The notes below the pieces were generated by a model. The model had not been told where the DNA came from. It saw nothing but the letters and a program-made list of their open reading frames with translations, and made no database searches. Made by a program: the position numbers and the translations under genes. DNA of 25,682 nucleotides from a virus: IMG/VR virus record IMGVR_UViG_3300031521_000328, positions 1 through 25,682 of that record; one strand, 5' to 3'. Positions 3,398 through 14,332 of the stretch are shown piece after piece (position 1 is the stretch's first letter; each line of letters opens with the position of its first letter).

Positions 3398-4626
3398 TAC
3401 AAAGTAGGGCGATAGAGATTATGCTGTCGGGGGCAAACGTTCTACTCACTGGTCAAGCAGGTTCTGGTAAAACATGGACAATCAATGAGTTTGTGAAGCA
3501 AGCGAAACGTAAGCATAAGAAGGTTGTTATAACAGCTACAACAGGTCTTGCATCTTCACACATTGGTGGACAAACTATCCACAGCTGGTCTGGCATGGGT
3601 CTTGATGACCATCTACACGATGACTACATTTACACAATGAGCGAGACTAGGAAGAAAGATATTCGGAAGACTGATGTTCTAATTATAGATGAAATCAGTA
3701 TGATGCACGATTACAATCTGGATATGGTCGATATGGCTATGAGACTGATTCGTGAGAATAATGAGCCGTTTGGGGGGATTCAGATTATCCTAGTTGGAGA
3801 CTTCTTTCAGTTACAACCTGTTAAACAGGGCGGTTCGGGGAAGTTCGTTGTATTCAGTGAAGTATGGAAACGCATGAATGTCAAGGTATGTTACCTAGAA
3901 GAACAATTCAGGCAGGATGATGTAGAATTACAGGGAATCTTAAATGCAATGCGTGATGGAACGTTGAATCAACACCATCTTAACTTACTTAAAAGTCGCA
4001 TTGGATATAAGGCATCCGATAATGTTACACGTCTTTACACGTTAAACATAGATGTTGAGAATATCAACAACAAGAAATTGGATGAATTGACAGGAGATAC
4101 GCATTATTATTTGCGTACAAGCCGAGGTAATTCATGGAACGATTTGCAGATATTGCAAAAGAATGTTCTAGCACCAGAGATACTCAGGCTTAAGTTGGGT
4201 GCGACAGTAATGGCAGTAAAGAATGACTCAGAAGGTCGATTCTTTAATGGCAGTATTGGAGTAATCACAGCGTGGTCTACAGAAGGATTCCCAGTAGTTG
4301 ACTTTGGAGATAAATATGCTTTTACAGTATATCCAGAGGAGTGGGAATACAAACGAAGTGAGAGAACAACAGCAGCTTTGACACAGATTCCTATACGATT
4401 AGCGTATGCAATAACAGTACACAGGTCTCAGGGGATGACACTAGACACAGCGGAAGTTGATTTGTCTAAGGCATTTGTTGAAGGCATGGGATACGTTGGA
4501 TTGAGTCGAGTTAGAAGCCTCAAAACATTGTACTTGAAAGGCTTTAATCAAAGGTCTTTGATGGTCAGTGGAGTAGCACGAGCAATAGATATTAAGTTCA
4601 AGCAGAGGAGCACTGAAAATGAATAA
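3394..4626 (+). CDS. PIF1/Dda-type superfamily 1 DNA helicase
   Basis: 410 aa, close to T4 Dda (439 aa). Motifs in order: Walker A GQAGSGKT (residues 20-27), motif Ia TATTGLAS, Walker B VLIIDEIS (residues 95-102), motif III GDFFQLQPV (about 143-151), motif IV region YLEEQFRQDD, then FFNGSIGVI, and the C-terminal AYAITVHRSQGMTLD and YVGLSRVR that close the ATP site. This places it in SF1B, moving 5' to 3' on single-stranded DNA, with probable roles in replication start, fork restart or recombination. It sits between an HNH gene and small basic proteins in the P1 block. Confidence 0.92.
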   Translation: MIQSRAIEIMLSGANVLLTGQAGSGKTWTINEFVKQAKRKHKKVVITATTGLASSHIGGQTIHSWSGMGLDDHLHDDYIYTMSETRKKDIRKTDVLIIDEISMMHDYNLDMVDMAMRLIRENNEPFGGIQIILVGDFFQLQPVKQGGSGKFVVFSEVWKRMNVKVCYLEEQFRQDDVELQGILNAMRDGTLNQHHLNLLKSRIGYKASDNVTRLYTLNIDVENINNKKLDELTGDTHYYLRTSRGNSWNDLQILQKNVLAPEILRLKLGATVMAVKNDSEGRFFNGSIGVITAWSTEGFPVVDFGDKYAFTVYPEEWEYKRSERTTAALTQIPIRLAYAITVHRSQGMTLDTAEVDLSKAFVEGMGYVGLSRVRSLKTLYLKGFNQRSLMVSGVARAIDIKFKQRSTENE

Positions 4627-4765
4627 AAAAGTAGATTTGTTTAGTAAGTTGATGCGAAAAAAAGAGCGTAACGATGAGCAGGTGGTCATTCGTACTAAGA
4701 AGCGAAGAGCAGCTAAAAAAGTGACCAAGTTAGGTCAACAAGCAGCAAGACGAAGGGCAAAATAA
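4619..4765 (+). CDS. 48-aa highly basic protein
   Basis: Not recognised. Starts inside the helicase stop region (8-nt overlap) with GAGGAG upstream. About 40% Lys/Arg (for example KKRRAAKK and ARRRAK near the end), so it probably binds nucleic acid. Its stop overlaps the next ATG (TAATG). Confidence 0.6.
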   Translation: MNKKVDLFSKLMRKKERNDEQVVIRTKKRRAAKKVTKLGQQAARRRAK

Positions 4766-4983
4766 TGCAGGATATAATGTTTGGTGGTGATAGGGACGAG
4801 CAAGCAAAATATGATTTTGTAAACTACCTACTGGAACACCCACATGAACGATTCTGGCAGGCAGTACGTAATTTCCAGCATTTTAACTTCATCTATGCAA
4901 GCAATAAGCTGATTGATGACCCAGAAGTGAAAGATACTTTCTATTGGGAAGATTTAAAGACAAAAAAAGAACCCAAGGCATAG
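4765..4983 (+). CDS. hypothetical 72-aa protein
   Basis: Not recognised. Soluble, aromatic-rich helical protein (FVNYLLEHPHERFWQAVRNF). Last gene of the P1 block. Its 3' end, from 4962, coincides with the predicted minus-strand terminator of the small RNA, so the two transcripts overlap tail to tail. Confidence 0.6.
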   Translation: MQDIMFGGDRDEQAKYDFVNYLLEHPHERFWQAVRNFQHFNFIYASNKLIDDPEVKDTFYWEDLKTKKEPKA

Positions 4984-5000
4984 GGGAATACCAAGGGTTC
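4962..5000 (-). terminator. Rho-independent terminator on the minus strand
   Basis: Read on the minus strand: GAACCC (5000-4995), a small mismatched region with a further GG/CC pairing, GGGTTC (4974-4969), then TTTTTTT (4968-4962). Stem plus uninterrupted U tract is the intrinsic terminator pattern. It lies about 45 nt after the predicted start of the small RNA's linker region. Confidence 0.65.
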
Positions 5001-5044
5001 AAGAAAGGAGTTAAGCGTAGAGTAACGACAAAGAAATCTCTACA
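4962..5044 (-). ncRNA. predicted ~80-nt regulatory small RNA
   Basis: Not an annotated family; inferred from signals. A consensus minus-strand promoter (5051-5079) should start RNA near 5044, and a stem followed by seven U residues ends it near 4962. The RNA would have three parts: a 5' hairpin GTAGAG/CTCTAC (5038-5043 with 5017-5022), an unpaired pyrimidine-rich linker containing UAACUCCUUU (5013 down to 5004), and the terminator stem GAACCC/GGGTTC. The linker is an anti-Shine-Dalgarno sequence, perfectly complementary over 10 nt to AAAGGAGTTA at 5272-5281, the ribosome binding site of the HIRAN nuclease gene. A role as translational repressor of that gene is inference. Confidence 0.6.
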
Positions 5045-5068
5045 TGTGGTATTATACCATAACTCCTT
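5005..5068. repeat. inverted AAGGAGTTA repeats around the small RNA promoter
   Basis: AAGGAGTTA at 5005-5013 and its reverse complement TAACTCCTT at 5060-5068 flank a TGGTA-TTA-TACCA dyad (5047-5059) that contains the minus-strand -10 box. A third, direct copy lies at 5273-5281 in the ribosome binding site of the HIRAN gene. It may be an operator-like dyad or an RNA three-way junction, or may simply reflect the anti-Shine-Dalgarno design of the small RNA. Confidence 0.5.
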
Positions 5069-5079
5069 AGTAAAGTCAA
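5051..5079 (-). promoter_or_regulatory. minus-strand promoter of the small RNA
   Basis: On the minus strand: -35 TTGACT (5079-5074), exactly 17 bp, -10 TATAAT (5056-5051), then ACC as at P2 and P3. The core resembles P1-P3, but the CTACAACAC box is absent at the corresponding position, so its control should differ. Confidence 0.7.
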
Positions 5080-5114
5080 TAGATAACAGGTTAGGAAACA
5101 TAAGAATGTTAATT

Positions 5115-5169
5115 CTACAACACATTTCCTGGAAAAACTATTGACTTTTAGCCTCCAGTTTGATATAAT
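5115..5169 (+). promoter_or_regulatory. promoter P2 with upstream CTACAACAC box
   Basis: CTACAACAC at 5115-5123, -35 TTGACT at 5141-5146, 17-bp spacer, extended -10 with TATAAT at 5164-5169. Predicted start near 5176. Same design and distances as P1 and P3. It is divergent from the small RNA promoter; the two -35 boxes are about 60 bp apart. Confidence 0.85.
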
Positions 5170-5192
5170 ACCTAGTATGATGAAAGGTAAAG

Positions 5193-5267
5193 ATGATACT
5201 AATAATAGTATGTATAGCGTTTCCGATAATCTGCGGTATGGTAGGCTATGACAACGACCCAAGATAA
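5193..5267 (+). CDS. 24-aa hydrophobic microprotein
   Basis: ATG at 5193 preceded by AAAGG about 6 nt upstream, directly in the P2 leader. It encodes a peptide that is almost wholly a membrane segment (MILIIVCIAFPIICGMVGYD, then a polar tail). It ends 16 nt before the HIRAN gene, which has its own ribosome binding site. An overlapping frame at 5177-5251 is less convincing. Like the 37-aa peptide before P1, it is a tiny membrane peptide placed beside a P-type promoter. Function unknown. Confidence 0.4.
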   Translation: MILIIVCIAFPIICGMVGYDNDPR

Positions 5268-5283
5268 CAATAAAGGAGTTAGA

Positions 5284-6549
5284 ATGAGTAAAGTATTCAA
5301 ATACAACAGTAAGTTGGTTGGAGTCACTTTCGAGGGTAGGCAAGCAGTTATTTCTACTCTTAAAGGCAAAGAACCACTACGAGTAAGGCGTGAAGCTGAG
5401 AACGAGTATGATAAGAATGCAGTAGCGGTTGATGTACAGGTTGGCGAAGAGTGGCTACCTATTGGCTACATTGCAAAAGACAAGAACCTAGAGATTGCAA
5501 AATCTATGGATGCAGAAGTTCCAGTACAAATTGTATTGTCAATTATCACAGGTGGAAGTGGCAAGAGCTTTGGTGTTAACATTGAATTGCAATATGCTGA
5601 AGCACCTAAAGAAGTTAAGAAAGCAGAAGTTGCAGAAGACGCAAAGCCTGTAGAAAAGCCAACGAAGGCTCAGATGCAGTCAGTTCTAGCTTACTTGACC
5701 CAGGTAGTGGATGCAAGCGGTGTTAAGAAAACAGTCGAACCTATAACATACAATAGTGTGCTCATTGGTAAGAACATCGAAATCAATGAAGTAAATGGTC
5801 ACAAACGACTTGAAGGCTTCTTAAGTGGTAGCAAGTTCCCAGAACAATTCTACGCTGAGTTTGATAAGACTGAAATCCTTAAGGCTATCCAGAATAAGCA
5901 TAAGTTAACAGATGCACAAGTAGAGCAAATCAAAGCGATGTGGGAAATTAACTCACAAATATCGACAAACTTTGGTAACTCAATTCACTTTGCAATGGAA
6001 AACTATGACCGTAACTTTGAACTTGGTGATAAAATCAAGAGTGTCAAAGAGTTCAAGACAAAGCCACCAGTTATTGGTGTAAACAAGGCACTCAACCGAA
6101 ACCCTCTAATGAAGAAAGTTGTTGAATCATTCCACGAATTATTTGGTGGTGATTACATCCGATTCAATGAAGAGTTTGTATGGGAAAAAGGTCTTAAGCT
6201 ATGTGGTTCGATTGACCGAATCAAAGTAGTAGACATGAAGAAACGAATCATCAGGATTCAGGACTTCAAAACAGATGCAGACATCCATGAAACTAAATAT
6301 CAGTTAGTTGATTCACCATTCTACGCATTGACTCAGGGCACAGCTCCTAAGTTAGGTAAAGAACTGTTGGACTGCCACTGGTTACAGCTTTCATTCTACG
6401 CATTCATCTTGCAACGTGCAGGCTGGACTGTAGAAGGACTAGACATCTATTGGGTAAACGGTGAGAAACTCGCTAACGGTGAAAACCCTTGGGAAGAGTT
6501 TAGTCACGATGTAATTGATATAACTAATGTAATTGTAGGAGAAGAATAA
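5284..6549 (+). CDS. HIRAN domain + PD-(D/E)XK (RecB-like) nuclease
   Basis: 421 aa. Residues 1-105 form a HIRAN domain (KLVGVTFEGRQ, LRVRREAENEYDKNAVAV, PIGYIAKD), known to bind stalled forks or 3' single-stranded ends. A Lys/Glu/Pro-rich linker follows (105-130). Residues 155-415 are a RecB-like nuclease: GNSIH (231-235), GSIDRI with Asp311, QDFKTD with Asp327 and Lys329, and QLSFY (368-372). Start at 5284 is set by AAAGGAG 5 nt upstream; the in-frame ATG at 5248 has no binding site. Followed at once by an SSB-like gene, it fits a phage recombination module that processes DNA ends. Its ribosome binding site is the predicted small RNA target. Fusion of these domains is known in phages. Confidence 0.85.
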   Translation: MSKVFKYNSKLVGVTFEGRQAVISTLKGKEPLRVRREAENEYDKNAVAVDVQVGEEWLPIGYIAKDKNLEIAKSMDAEVPVQIVLSIITGGSGKSFGVNIELQYAEAPKEVKKAEVAEDAKPVEKPTKAQMQSVLAYLTQVVDASGVKKTVEPITYNSVLIGKNIEINEVNGHKRLEGFLSGSKFPEQFYAEFDKTEILKAIQNKHKLTDAQVEQIKAMWEINSQISTNFGNSIHFAMENYDRNFELGDKIKSVKEFKTKPPVIGVNKALNRNPLMKKVVESFHELFGGDYIRFNEEFVWEKGLKLCGSIDRIKVVDMKKRIIRIQDFKTDADIHETKYQLVDSPFYALTQGTAPKLGKELLDCHWLQLSFYAFILQRAGWTVEGLDIYWVNGEKLANGENPWEEFSHDVIDITNVIVGEE

Positions 6550-8955: not shown

Positions 8956-9578
8956 ATTCGTACAATCGTAAAATGGTCTAAGACAGCAGCTATCCTGGCA
9001 GTTGTTACAGTCCTTCTAGTTGCTTATGTGTTTGTGCAGACTGCTCATGCAGCCTCAATCCAAAAAGCGGAGCAATCCCTTCAGGAGTCACAGCAAGAGA
9101 CTAGTAAAATCGAATCGAATCTGAAGACCGTGCAAACGGAAAAACAACAGTTGACAACAGCTGTTAGTGAAAAAGATGCGAAGATTACACAACTAGAACA
9201 GGAAAACTCCGCTTTAAAAGACTAAAGCAAGAAAAGTTAGAGGCAGCACGGCAGCAGACCATTAGAGTATCTACTCAGGTTGCAGTCAGTGGTAACTGTC
9301 AGGCTTGGCTTGCTTCTGTCGTTAGCAGTTCGGAACTCAATAGTGCTATTGAATTACAAAGACGTGAGAACGGCTCTTGTAACCCTCAGTTGTACAATAC
9401 TGGAGGCTCGAATGCTTGTGGAGTAGCCCAGGAATTACCCTGTGGCAAATCTGGTTGCGGAATGCCACCAAACGCAGACGGTGCTTGTCAAATACGCTGG
9501 ATGAACTCCTATGTTATAGGACGTTACGGCTCTTGGGCAAATGCCCTACAGCACCACAATGCGGTTAACTGGTATTAA
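8956..9578 (+). CDS. membrane-anchored coiled-coil muralytic protein, expressed by -1 frameshift
   Basis: Two frames appear to make one protein. Frame one runs from a probable ATT start at 8956 (AAAGGA 5 nt upstream; no ATG, GTG or TTG fits as well) to TAA at 9225, giving 89 aa: basic start, membrane segment at 11-27 and a signal-peptidase-like AHA-A at 30-33, then a coiled coil rich in Gln, Glu and Lys. At 9213-9219 the heptamer T TTA AAA allows a -1 shift into a frame that ends at 9578, giving about 207 aa. The shifted part holds a Cys-rich lytic transglycosylase/Apf-like domain: GNCQAWLASV, ENGSCNP with the probable catalytic Glu, ACGVAQELPCG, CQIRWMNSYV, RYGSWANA and HNAVNWY. It would cut peptidoglycan outside the membrane. 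A real mutation is the alternative. Confidence 0.7.
9200..9219 (+). promoter_or_regulatory. predicted programmed -1 frameshift site
   Basis: Zero-frame codons read GCT TTA AAA GAC TAA, so T TTA AAA at 9213-9219 fits the X XXY YYZ slippery rule. An internal Shine-Dalgarno-like AGGA at 9200-9203 ends 9 nt upstream, about the distance used by E. coli dnaX. The zero-frame stop comes two codons later. I see only a weak downstream stem (CTAA/TTAG), so stimulation by the upstream site is more likely. Confidence 0.6.
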
Positions 9579-9604
9579 ATGAATAATTATTGAAGGAAGT
9601 AAAT

Positions 9605-9685
9605 ATGCCAAATATTTTACCACATCTGCCCAACCGAATGTTCGGAAACCAGGGTACAGACCAGTCAAGAATTATAAACTTGTAG
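9605..9685 (+). CDS. possible 26-aa peptide
   Basis: Not recognised. ATG at 9605 follows GAAGGAAG by 5-6 nt and encodes a peptide beginning MPNILPHLPNRMFG, ending at TAG 9685, just before the tRNA-like region. The binding site is good, but the length gives little coding evidence. Confidence 0.35.
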   Translation: MPNILPHLPNRMFGNQGTDQSRIINL

Positions 9686-9761
9686 ATAGGAAGATGGGTT
9701 CGGCTACATGGAGTAGTTGACGCAAGTGAGGCACGCACTCCTCAGCCCTGTCCTCCTTTCT

Positions 9762-9843
9762 GGGGTATCAATGGTTAGACCAGGCGTAAATCCACGAGTT
9801 GGAAACCCTTGGGACGAGAGTTCGATTCTCTCATACTCCACCA
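9762..9843 (+). tRNA. tRNA-like element A (encoded CCA; lower half non-standard)
   Basis: Acceptor GGGGTAT (9762-9768) pairs over 7 bp with ATACTCC (9833-9839), then A and encoded CCA. T arm GAGAG-TTCGATT-CTCTC (9816-9832) is perfect. No standard D arm or anticodon arm can be drawn from the 41 nt in between, and position 8 is C, not U. A second 5' partner for the 3' strand exists at 9710-9716 (TGGAGTA with TACTCCA). The isotype cannot be assigned; it could be a diverged tRNA, one with an insertion, or a tRNA mimic. Confidence 0.5.
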
Positions 9844-9850
9844 AATATAT

Positions 9851-9937
9851 GACGTAAAGGCGTGTGCAAGGTAACGCAGCTCCATGTATGAGCACAAATA
9901 TAGGAGCATGTTTCAGGTTCAATCCCTGATTACGTTT
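9851..9937 (+). tRNA. tRNA-like element B (enlarged anticodon region, no CCA)
   Basis: Acceptor GACGTAA (9851-9857) pairs with TTACGTT (9930-9936). D arm GCGT-GTGCAAGGTA-ACGC, with the usual GG in the loop. T arm TCAGG-TTCAATC-CCTGA. Between them GCTCC/GGAGC (9879-9883 with 9903-9907) encloses a 19-nt loop instead of 7. An alternative 4-bp stem GCTC-CATGTAT-GAGC gives a 7-nt loop without U33 and leaves a long variable arm. CCA is not encoded (TGG follows). Isotype not assignable. Confidence 0.5.
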
Positions 9938-9947
9938 TGGATGAACT

Positions 9948-9976
9948 GGGGCGACACCGTAAAAGTCTCTCCACCA
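9948..9976 (+). other. CCA-ended hairpin (minihelix-like)
   Basis: GGGGCGAC (9948-9955) pairs with GTCTCTCC (9965-9972) with one mismatch and one wobble, loop ACCGTAAAA, followed by A and CCA at 9974-9976. It has no T-arm motif. It looks like an isolated acceptor-type hairpin between two tRNA-like elements; it may be a remnant or part of a larger fold. Confidence 0.35.
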
Positions 9977-9980
9977 ATAA

Positions 9981-10074
9981 TGCGATGTAGCTCAGCGGCA
10001 GAGCGGAGGTCTAATAAACCTTGACTATCAAAGTACACGATAATGCCCAGGTTCGATACCTGGCATCGCAGCCA
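9981..10074 (+). tRNA. tRNA-like element D (long variable arm, encoded CCA)
   Basis: The best tRNA of the group: acceptor TGCGATG (9981-9987) with CATCGCA (10064-10070), TA at 8-9, D arm GCTC-AGCGGCA-GAGC, anticodon stem GAGGT/ACCTT (10006-10010 with 10018-10022), T arm CCAGG-TTCGATA-CCTGG, G discriminator and encoded CCA. The anticodon loop CTAATAA reads AAT (Ile, rare in bacteria). The 24-nt variable region, with a TATC/GATA stem, is of class II size although the D arm is of class I type. If the U-A closing pair opens, CTA would follow U33. Isotype uncertain. Confidence 0.65.
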
Positions 10075-10381
10075 TAAATACAATACACATGCTAATCAGG
10101 CGTAAGTCAGCCAAACGAGATTTCCGTAGAGCTGTTGATGACAGTTCCGTAGTATATTATCCTTTAACCATACGAGTACTCTCGTGTCCTGTCTTAATGG
10201 TACTGGATTTAATCACCAGGTGTTTCGGTACGAACCGTACTGCATTCAGGCGAATTGGTTAGCAGTTGTATTGTATTTAAAACCCTTCCTATAATGAGTA
10301 ATTAAACCGTAAGTGTCTTCGGACTGTAATACGGAGCTTAGTTATTTTACGGAAGGGGTTGTGAATATAATAGGAGAATAA
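10075..10381 (+). other. non-coding stretch with repeated CCGTA and several hairpins
   Basis: No gene seen. It contains a direct repeat TTCCGTAG (10122-10129 and 10145-10152), hairpins CTGT-TGATG-ACAG (10132-10144), ACGAG-TACT-CTCGT (near 10170-10185) and CGGT-ACGA-ACCG (near 10225-10237), and the larger fold at 10281-10360. CCGTA occurs four times here and once in the minihelix at 9957. CAGGCGTAA also occurs both here (near 10097) and in element A, so it may contain a decayed further tRNA-like copy. Confidence 0.45.
10281..10360 (+). ncRNA. structured RNA element upstream of the 10382 gene
   Basis: A 9-bp closing stem AACCCTTCC (10281-10289) with GGAAGGGGTT (10351-10360, one bulged G) encloses a second stem CCGTA/TACGG (10307-10311 with 10330-10334) capped by GTC-TTCG-GAC (10315-10324). 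UUCG is a stable RNA tetraloop. The element ends about 20 nt before the start of the next gene, so it could control it or protect or process the transcript after the tRNA region. No known family recognised; there is no U tract, so it is not a terminator. Confidence 0.45.
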
Positions 10382-13416: not shown

Positions 13417-14332
13417 AACAGCAGCTTTCCCTAAGATTCTACATATCGGGGACAAACAAATCCTTGACCTTTTTGAAGGTGAGGTGGAGATTACTGAGAA
13501 ACTTGACGGTTCACAGTTTTCATTTGGTAAAATAGATGGAGTAGTTGTTACTCGCTCAAAAGGACGTGAGTTTGAAGAGCCAGATAAACTATTCCGACCA
13601 GTATGGGAATATGTGCATTCGATAGAAGACAGGCTTCCAGAGGGTATTTGGTTCTACGGTGAAACACTGGGAACTCCACGCCACTCGACACTAGCATACG
13701 ATAGAACGCCTAAAAACTTCTTCGCAATGTTTGGTGTATATGTTAGCGAGACACATGAGTATCTTAACTACGATTCAATCAAGGAATGGTCAGATAAACT
13801 AGATGTTGACCCAGTTCCGTTATTGTTCAGGGGTGAGATTAGCCAGAGTGCGATACTAGATATGGTAGAAGACACAGTTAGCTATCTCGGTGGACAAAAG
13901 ATTGAAGGTGTTGTAGTAAAGGCATACAAGAATTGGTTATTCCTTGGACAGATTCCGTTATCGGTTATGTCTGGTAAATATGTCACAGAGGCATTTAAGG
14001 AAGTACACCAGAAAGATTGGTCTAAGCTAAACACTGGTAAGGGTAAGTTCGATGTCTTGAAAGAGAATTATCGTACAGAGGCTCGATGGAATAAGGCAGT
14101 ACAGCACCTCCGAGACAATGGAGAGTTGACTGGTACACCTAAAGATATTGGTTTGTTACTTAAGGAGGTCTATGTTGACTTAGATACTGAAGAGCAAGAG
14201 AATATCAAAGAACAACTTTATAGTATCTATAAATCAGATATTATGAAGTACGCCACATTTGGGTTAGCCCAGTGGTATAAAGAACAACTATTGGAAGGAA
14301 AAATCAATGGAATCAGTACAGAAAATCAGTAA
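13409..14332 (+). CDS. RNA ligase (nucleotidyltransferase family)
   Basis: 307 aa. Motif I ITEKLDGSQF with Lys31 as the AMP-accepting lysine; motif III FYGET (82-86); motif IIIa NFFAMFGV (103-110); motif IV EGVVVKAY (166-173); motif V region around SGKYVTEAFKE (188-198). This matches the ATP-dependent Rnl2-like RNA ligase core (about 200 aa) followed by a helical C-terminal domain that usually binds RNA. It would seal 5'-phosphate/3'-OH breaks prepared by Pnkp. Position between RlaP and Pnkp genes supports a tRNA-repair role. Confidence 0.9.
   Translation: MSKTAAFPKILHIGDKQILDLFEGEVEITEKLDGSQFSFGKIDGVVVTRSKGREFEEPDKLFRPVWEYVHSIEDRLPEGIWFYGETLGTPRHSTLAYDRTPKNFFAMFGVYVSETHEYLNYDSIKEWSDKLDVDPVPLLFRGEISQSAILDMVEDTVSYLGGQKIEGVVVKAYKNWLFLGQIPLSVMSGKYVTEAFKEVHQKDWSKLNTGKGKFDVLKENYRTEARWNKAVQHLRDNGELTGTPKDIGLLLKEVYVDLDTEEQENIKEQLYSIYKSDIMKYATFGLAQWYKEQLLEGKINGISTENQ

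Follow-up and report, generated by a model that had tools for sequence, protein, structure and literature searches.

A conserved small RNA gene with a predicted anti-Shine-Dalgarno linker in a family of uncultivated phages

A gene for a small RNA (sRNA) is present on the minus strand of the phage DNA studied here, divergent from the promoter of a nuclease gene. The DNA, referred to as the window, is the whole stretch of 25,682 nucleotides that was analysed. The gene is real and forms a closed family, while its transcription is inferred from the sequence. By its anatomy, it resembles the sRNAs that mask Shine-Dalgarno (SD) sequences. Among phage sRNAs, a known kind, it is a new family with unusual conservation. 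With roughly even confidence, it is proposed to be a trans-acting phage sRNA, which exposes CUCCUUUCU and masks SD sequences in host messages, the likely targets, and possibly in the divergent P2 transcript as well. The features of the region are as follows.

5051–5079, minus strand: sRNA promoter, TTGACT (5079–5074), 17-bp spacer, TATAAT (5056–5051)
4962–5045, minus strand: predicted sRNA, about 84 nt
5017–5043, minus strand: 5′ hairpin, GUAGAG/CUCUAC, with an invariant 15-nt loop, AUUUCUUUGUCGUUA (loop at 5037–5023)
5002–5016, minus strand: linker GCUUAACUCCUUUCU, unpaired by fold prediction
4962–5000, minus strand: intrinsic terminator, with a GAACCC/GGGTTC stem, an inner stem, a loop with UCCCC, and seven U
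5107–5126: TGTTAATTCTACAACACATT, a conserved box separating the divergent promoters
5141–5169, plus strand: divergent promoter P2 (TTGACT-17-TATAAT) of the nuclease transcript
5272–5281, plus strand: AAAGGAGTTA, the ribosome binding site (RBS) of the nuclease, a candidate target with 10 nt of complementarity to the linker
5284–6549, plus strand: HIRAN + PD-(D/E)XK-like nuclease gene, 421 aa

The sRNA promoter matches the consensus at 11 of 12 positions and carries a TG ahead of the -10 box; only five sites of such quality are found across the whole 25.7 kb window. The 5′ end of the RNA was placed from the position of the -10 box and the onset of conservation. At the other end, the terminator arms GAACCC (5000–4995) and GGGTTC (4974–4969) enclose the inner stem GGUAU/AUGCC and are followed by the seven U at 4968–4962. 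A simple scanner overlooks this terminator because its stem is interrupted, but it becomes visible on folding. The 83-nt RNA is predicted to fold into a hairpin, an unpaired linker and a terminator at -22.9 kcal/mol, as compared to -10.1 ± 2.3 kcal/mol for its shuffled versions (z = -5.5; none of the 200 was as stable). The part of the linker at 5010–5002, CUCCUUUCU, is an anti-SD sequence. The linker is predicted to be fully unpaired and its seed is conserved, a feature of the trans-acting sRNAs that pair with SD sequences.

The sequence-only reading had described a self-contained minus-strand RNA of about 80 nt, arranged as hairpin, linker and terminator, with TTGACT-17-TATAAT at 5079–5051 and a GAACCC/GGGTTC terminator with seven U. 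The promoter is indeed present in the sequence, the terminator is borne out by both the sequence and its folding, and the computed fold agrees with the arrangement of the putative transcript. The RNA also appears to be self-contained, as it has its own promoter and terminator, and the element recurs in 13 other contigs. It may be argued that a promoter-like sequence fell beside a terminator-like one by chance, and that the anti-SD string arose from an SD-like sequence on the opposite strand. The promoter and terminator counts in 4000–6500 do lie within the shuffle range. Nevertheless, such an origin is vanishingly improbable, as it is refuted by the conservation described below and all the comparative results stand against it. 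A protein-coding reading of the conserved body was also rejected. There is no plausible ORF, only a GUG and then a UAG, and the AUG found in the window and in two relatives (L051 and L063) is directly followed by UAG.

The element was sought in IMG/VR by hairpin-plus-linker patterns, along with helicase and nuclease scans, and was found in 13 further contigs, 11 of them distinct from the window. As L001 and L013 carry the window's own sequence, and G002 and G004 are near each other, these represent about ten distinct lineages. Some contigs bear two handles (G001 = L013, G002 = L016, G003 = L018, G004 = L010, G005 = L012, G006 = L014, G007 = L015, G008 = L017 and G009 = L011). The element always lies, in leftward orientation, between the nuclease and a Pif1-type helicase or the small genes that follow this helicase, and the nuclease synteny is unbroken wherever the element is present. 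Searching with a covariance model of the body gives a single strong hit in each phage. Every relative with a readable region carries the element, except the sub-group L053–L055 (helicase identity 56–57%), in which a nuclease-like gene follows the helicase without it. The contig L050 stops within the region, inside a similar terminator-like sequence. Another contig, L019, has 19 nt in common with the element, without the hairpin, promoter or terminator, and was rejected as a relative.

The 44-nt body of the RNA is conserved to a striking degree. In the relatives that align without an insert, 39–43 of its 44 positions are identical to the window, although the helicase shares 61–89% amino-acid identity and its four-fold degenerate sites only 24–58%. 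With the body frozen and the neighbouring synonymous sites near saturation, nearly every base is under selection, and the body is thus constrained as an RNA beyond the neighbouring neutral sites. The conserved block begins at the expected transcription start and finishes at CUCCUUUCU. On both sides of it, the promoter and terminator sequences are wholly replaced in G003, G007, L051, L052 and L063. The replacement promoters read TTGACA/T-17-TATAAT/TATAGT and keep their distance to the body, which is followed by a terminator-like hairpin and its T-rich tail. Thus, all 12 relatives have a minus-strand promoter with a 17-bp spacer at a constant distance from the body, and in all 12 a promoter and an intrinsic terminator flank the short structured RNA, as expected for a stand-alone intergenic sRNA gene. 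Conservation and anatomy are directly observed, and transcription is predicted from them.

Within the hairpin, one stem pair of L051 is altered on both sides, from A-U to U-A, with the hairpin kept, and the basal stem pair alternates between U-G and U-A among the relatives. The covariation is weak because the stem hardly varies, and 85 of 500 shuffles do as well. L052, the most divergent copy, keeps the hairpin and most of the loop, contains ACUCCUUCCCUCC and has an extra small hairpin inserted. In almost all copies, stem and loop are conserved in sequence, beyond structure alone.

The conserved segment could, in principle, act as DNA or as a plus-strand element (an origin, a binding site or the leader hairpin of a read-through mRNA) rather than as a minus-strand RNA. 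The sequences AGAAAGGAGTTA ... TAACTCCTTTCT flank the hairpin in G005 and G006, so the plus strand could fold as well. However, this repeat is part of the promoter spacer, and G003, G007, L051, L052 and L063 lack it. Moreover, the conservation sets in at the expected minus-strand start, the last hairpin has its T-runs on the minus-strand side, and all 12 relatives have rebuilt their promoters on the minus strand. Such a role is, therefore, very unlikely.

The neighbouring nuclease matches the HIRAN domain with an E-value of 4e-9 and PDDEXK_1 with 0.0012, the latter being below the curated cut-off. Its promoter P2 and the sRNA promoter are arranged back to back, with the -35 boxes about 62 bp apart, around the conserved box TGTNAATTCTACAACACATT. 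A similar box also precedes the P2-type promoters at 1826 and 8818, which suggests that the sRNA and P2 transcripts may share a regulator. The early promoters at 1826, 5141 and 8818 (plus strand) are near-identical (TTGACT-17-TATAAT, GTTTGATATAAT), each lying behind the box (T)TGTAnATTCTACAACACATT, which is likely a regulator site. Between P2 and the nuclease, on the same transcript, there is a small ORF of about 25–33 codons (about 5193–5267 in the window). It is also present in L012, L014, L010, L018, L015, L051 and L063, and is hydrophobic in most relatives. An example is MILTIIVLVALVVTLLVSRKFVKELDSE in G005. In several phages, the nuclease RBS is made up of the KEL codons of this ORF. In L017, L051, L063 and L053–L055, the HIRAN N-terminus seems to be swapped for MxxITxATxxxPTVQYGN..., while the C-terminal nuclease part aligns; the gene in question follows the sRNA position or the helicase.

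The sequence-only reading had further proposed that the linker pairs with the nuclease RBS, so that the RNA would serve as a repressor of its divergent neighbour. The claimed complementarity of 10 nt, UAACUCCUUU to AAAGGAGTTA at 5272–5281, with CAA after one mismatch, is present in the sequence. The extra CAA pairing needs a linker end that is one base shorter, which is not common to the other relatives. Of the ten paired nucleotides, 6–7 form the SD core itself. When this core was fixed and the flanks were shuffled, 14% of the shuffles equalled the pairing of the window. With CUCCUU fixed, the share of equally good flank shuffles was 3–24% across ten phages and 8–24% in most of them, but rose to 52% in G009 and 82% in L052; the window's linker was used for L052, and the tests are not independent as the phages are related. 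As a sign of more than chance, the pairing with the nuclease RBS is, thus, marginal. A preference of the phage RBSs for the linker flanks was not seen in most genomes and was weak in G004 and G008.

A dedicated local repressor would delay the synthesis of the nuclease by pairing with its RBS or, in other phages, with that of the small ORF which precedes it on the P2 transcript. Several observations agree with it. Of the 45 start regions tested in the window, the linker pairs best with that of the nuclease, which also ranks first by the mean over relatives. The P2 leader falls among the best 0–11% of equal-sized genome windows for linker pairing in 11 of 12 phages and, counting either the nuclease RBS or that of the small ORF, within the best 10% of the genome in 10 of 12. 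A generic 16S tail gives unremarkable values on the same leaders, which suggests that this pairing does not reflect SD strength only. The unbroken nuclease synteny also fits. However, the extended match is lost at the nuclease RBS while the linker is unchanged in G009 (where the RBS turned to TAAGGAAGG), G007 (TAAGGAGAAG), L051 (TAAGGAAGC) and L063 (a weak GAAGAG). In three of these, L063, L051 and G007, the linker match occurs at the RBS of the small ORF instead. In G002–G006, the match AAGGAGTT(A/G) doubles as the KEL codons of the overlapping hydrophobic small ORF. On co-folding of whole molecules, the nuclease leader ranks only 12th of 37, as 11 of the 36 other start regions gain more energy, and the predicted joint structure does not depend on the proposed linker pairing. 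The flank shuffles above also weigh against such a role, which, moreover, leaves the frozen hairpin and loop unexplained.

The co-variation of linker and nuclease RBS, suggested earlier as a check, is thus mostly absent, the linker staying UAACUCCUUUCU while the RBS changes. Complementarity to one target RBS is not maintained among the relatives, which is not what is seen with a dedicated RBS-blocking RNA of the c4/sar type. Of the repressor loop proposed earlier, the unpaired anti-SD linker and the well-pairing P2 leader stand, while the nuclease RBS as a dedicated target is not established. The unusually good pairing in 10 of 12 phages speaks for the duplex with the P2 leader, and the co-folding rank against it. 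The reading as a dedicated repressor of the HIRAN nuclease is, therefore, only weakly supported and is rather improbable. The adjacent nuclease gene is at most one target of the sRNA, and the P2 transcript may be one among several. The latter is unlikely to be the cause of the frozen 44 nt, though it is plausible as a secondary target.

In the favoured reading of SD masking in trans, the sRNA would be transcribed from its own strong host-type promoter, divergent from P2, and ended by its own terminator. The linker GCUUAACUCCUUUCU would pair with SD sequences of the AGAAAGGAG(UUAAG) type and block the loading of ribosomes, so that the translation of chosen messages is probably prevented. CUCCUUUCU copies the nine bases with which the 16S rRNA of many Gram-positive bacteria typically ends; with this match, SD masking would be a natural mechanism. 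A fully unpaired anti-SD sequence with an extension is also the textbook seed of an SD-masking sRNA. The hairpin or its loop would add specificity or bind a fixed partner, the loop UUUCUUUGUCGUUA being a possible second seed or a protein site. The 44-nt body is frozen while the candidate phage targets, neighbours, promoter and terminator vary. It therefore probably acts mainly on a partner from the host, either mRNAs or an RNA-binding or ribosomal factor. If true, these phages would possess a compact RNA tool to redirect translation, and the invariant body offers an immediate bait for a partner search.

The sequence constraint on the whole hairpin exceeds the need of a simple base-pairing RNA and suits a protein-binding role as well. 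The hairpin and the pyrimidine tract might act as a decoy, or as a scaffold, to which an RNA-binding protein, a ribosomal protein or a nuclease of the host (or phage) binds, the pairing being incidental. The conservation of stem and loop in sequence, and not in structure alone, in almost all copies is consistent with this, as is the recurrence of the tract CUCCUUUCU in another RNA context. In the phage genomes, moreover, no partner consistently complementary to the loop UUUCUUUGUCGUUA was seen. Loop complements at the start of a small G004 gene (GUAACGACAAAGAGACC, -20 kcal/mol) and in the G005 kinase gene are absent from the orthologues and were judged accidental. On the other hand, the P2 leaders pair unusually well with the linker, and the unpaired anti-SD sequence with its extension is the seed of an SD-masking sRNA. 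It is an unlikely alternative, yet one to be taken seriously.

The database searches covered both the RNA and its surroundings. Rfam covariance models gave no match at 4962–5045 up to E = 1, and phage records held no homologue of the DNA of the region. The sRNA itself found no homologue in phage and plasmid records, only chance matches of 23–29 nt. An exact scan of 85,000 genomes (GTDB species) for TACTCTACGCTTAACTCCTTTC, which would miss variants, found none, so the sRNA does not belong to the known host or prophage sequences of these genomes. As regards the host, the GH25 + G5 lysin shows weak Gram-positive matches, and the terminase and RNA ligase only distant ones. The phage looks virulent (an endonuclease I is encoded and no integrase was noticed).

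Experiments on lambdoid and other enterobacterial prophages have supplied most of the described phage sRNAs; the present one was read from the raw sequence of an uncultivated phage. Phage sRNAs are already a known kind, including c4, sar, OOP, PreS and VpdS (PMC12197685). The antisense RNAs c4 (P1/P7) and sar (P22) are repressors of ant (PMC12197685). Like them, the present sRNA is a small phage RNA that could block an RBS by pairing, and lies near a candidate target. In contrast to them, only a short stretch pairs with the neighbour and the relatives do not preserve this pairing, the RNA itself is frozen, and the phage looks virulent, without a known immunity role. PreS (lambda, dnaN) and VpdS (VP882) are host-directed (PMC12197685). 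They, too, are encoded by stand-alone genes, and an action on both host and phage messages has been proposed or demonstrated for them, but they are Hfq-dependent and experimentally shown, whereas the present sRNA is known from sequence alone; no sequence relation to them was found in Rfam or in the phage and plasmid record searches. In Gram-positive bacteria, the C-rich sRNAs of the RsaE/RoxS type pair with SD sequences (PMC4409812, PMC10433868). Both they and the present RNA have hairpins exposing unpaired pyrimidine/C-rich seeds complementary to SD, here CUCCUUUCU and, in clade 1, the UCCCC of the terminator loop. However, RsaE/RoxS are bacterial and not phage RNAs, their seeds are UCCC repeats, and the present sRNA has no Rfam match.

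The 3′ end of 16S rRNA also has a hairpin followed by an unpaired tail with CUCCUUUCU. The sRNA might, thus, be a mimic of this end, which, made from a near-consensus promoter, would compete with ribosomes for SD sequences or sequester a factor of the 16S tail, and so reshape host translation in the course of infection. This is a doubtful proposal. Only about 9–10 nt are in common, with AA in place of AC just 5′ of the core, the hairpin is unrelated, and the sRNA runs on into its terminator unless processed. If it were true, the sRNA, along with the same tail before a tRNA-like gene and a tmRNA-like tRNA domain in these phages, would amount to a coordinated RNA-based takeover of translation.

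The tail in question, CTCCTTTCT at 9753–9761 of the window (plus strand), has the same nine bases as the sRNA and lies directly 5′ of a tRNA-like gene. CUCCUUUCU stands directly before such a gene in five phages (window, G004, G005, G008 and G009), and this recurrence suggests that the motif itself is useful to the phages. In G004 and G005, the nine-base tail follows a hairpin with the loop UGCGUUAAG and different stems. Next to it, an 82-nt RNA is located at 9762–9843 of the window (plus strand) and at 14093–14174 of L027, with homologues in G001, G002, G004, G005 and G008. It matches both ends of the Rfam tmRNA model (1–374), with about 15 nt replacing roughly 306, and scores above the gathering threshold in L027; an internal [GC]CGUAAAUCC is conserved. 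Judged from these matches, it is the tRNA-like domain (TLD) of tmRNA without the messenger part. A TLD-only RNA was reported in mycobacteriophage DS6A, and such a molecule was reported to inhibit tmRNA (PMC4131195, PMC11915505). The region 9560–10350 of the window holds a cluster of odd tRNA-like sequences, some of which are not called by ARAGORN, and includes a 94-nt tRNA-Ile(aat) at 9981–10074 (plus strand). The phages with this cluster also encode an RNA ligase, PNK and RlaP.
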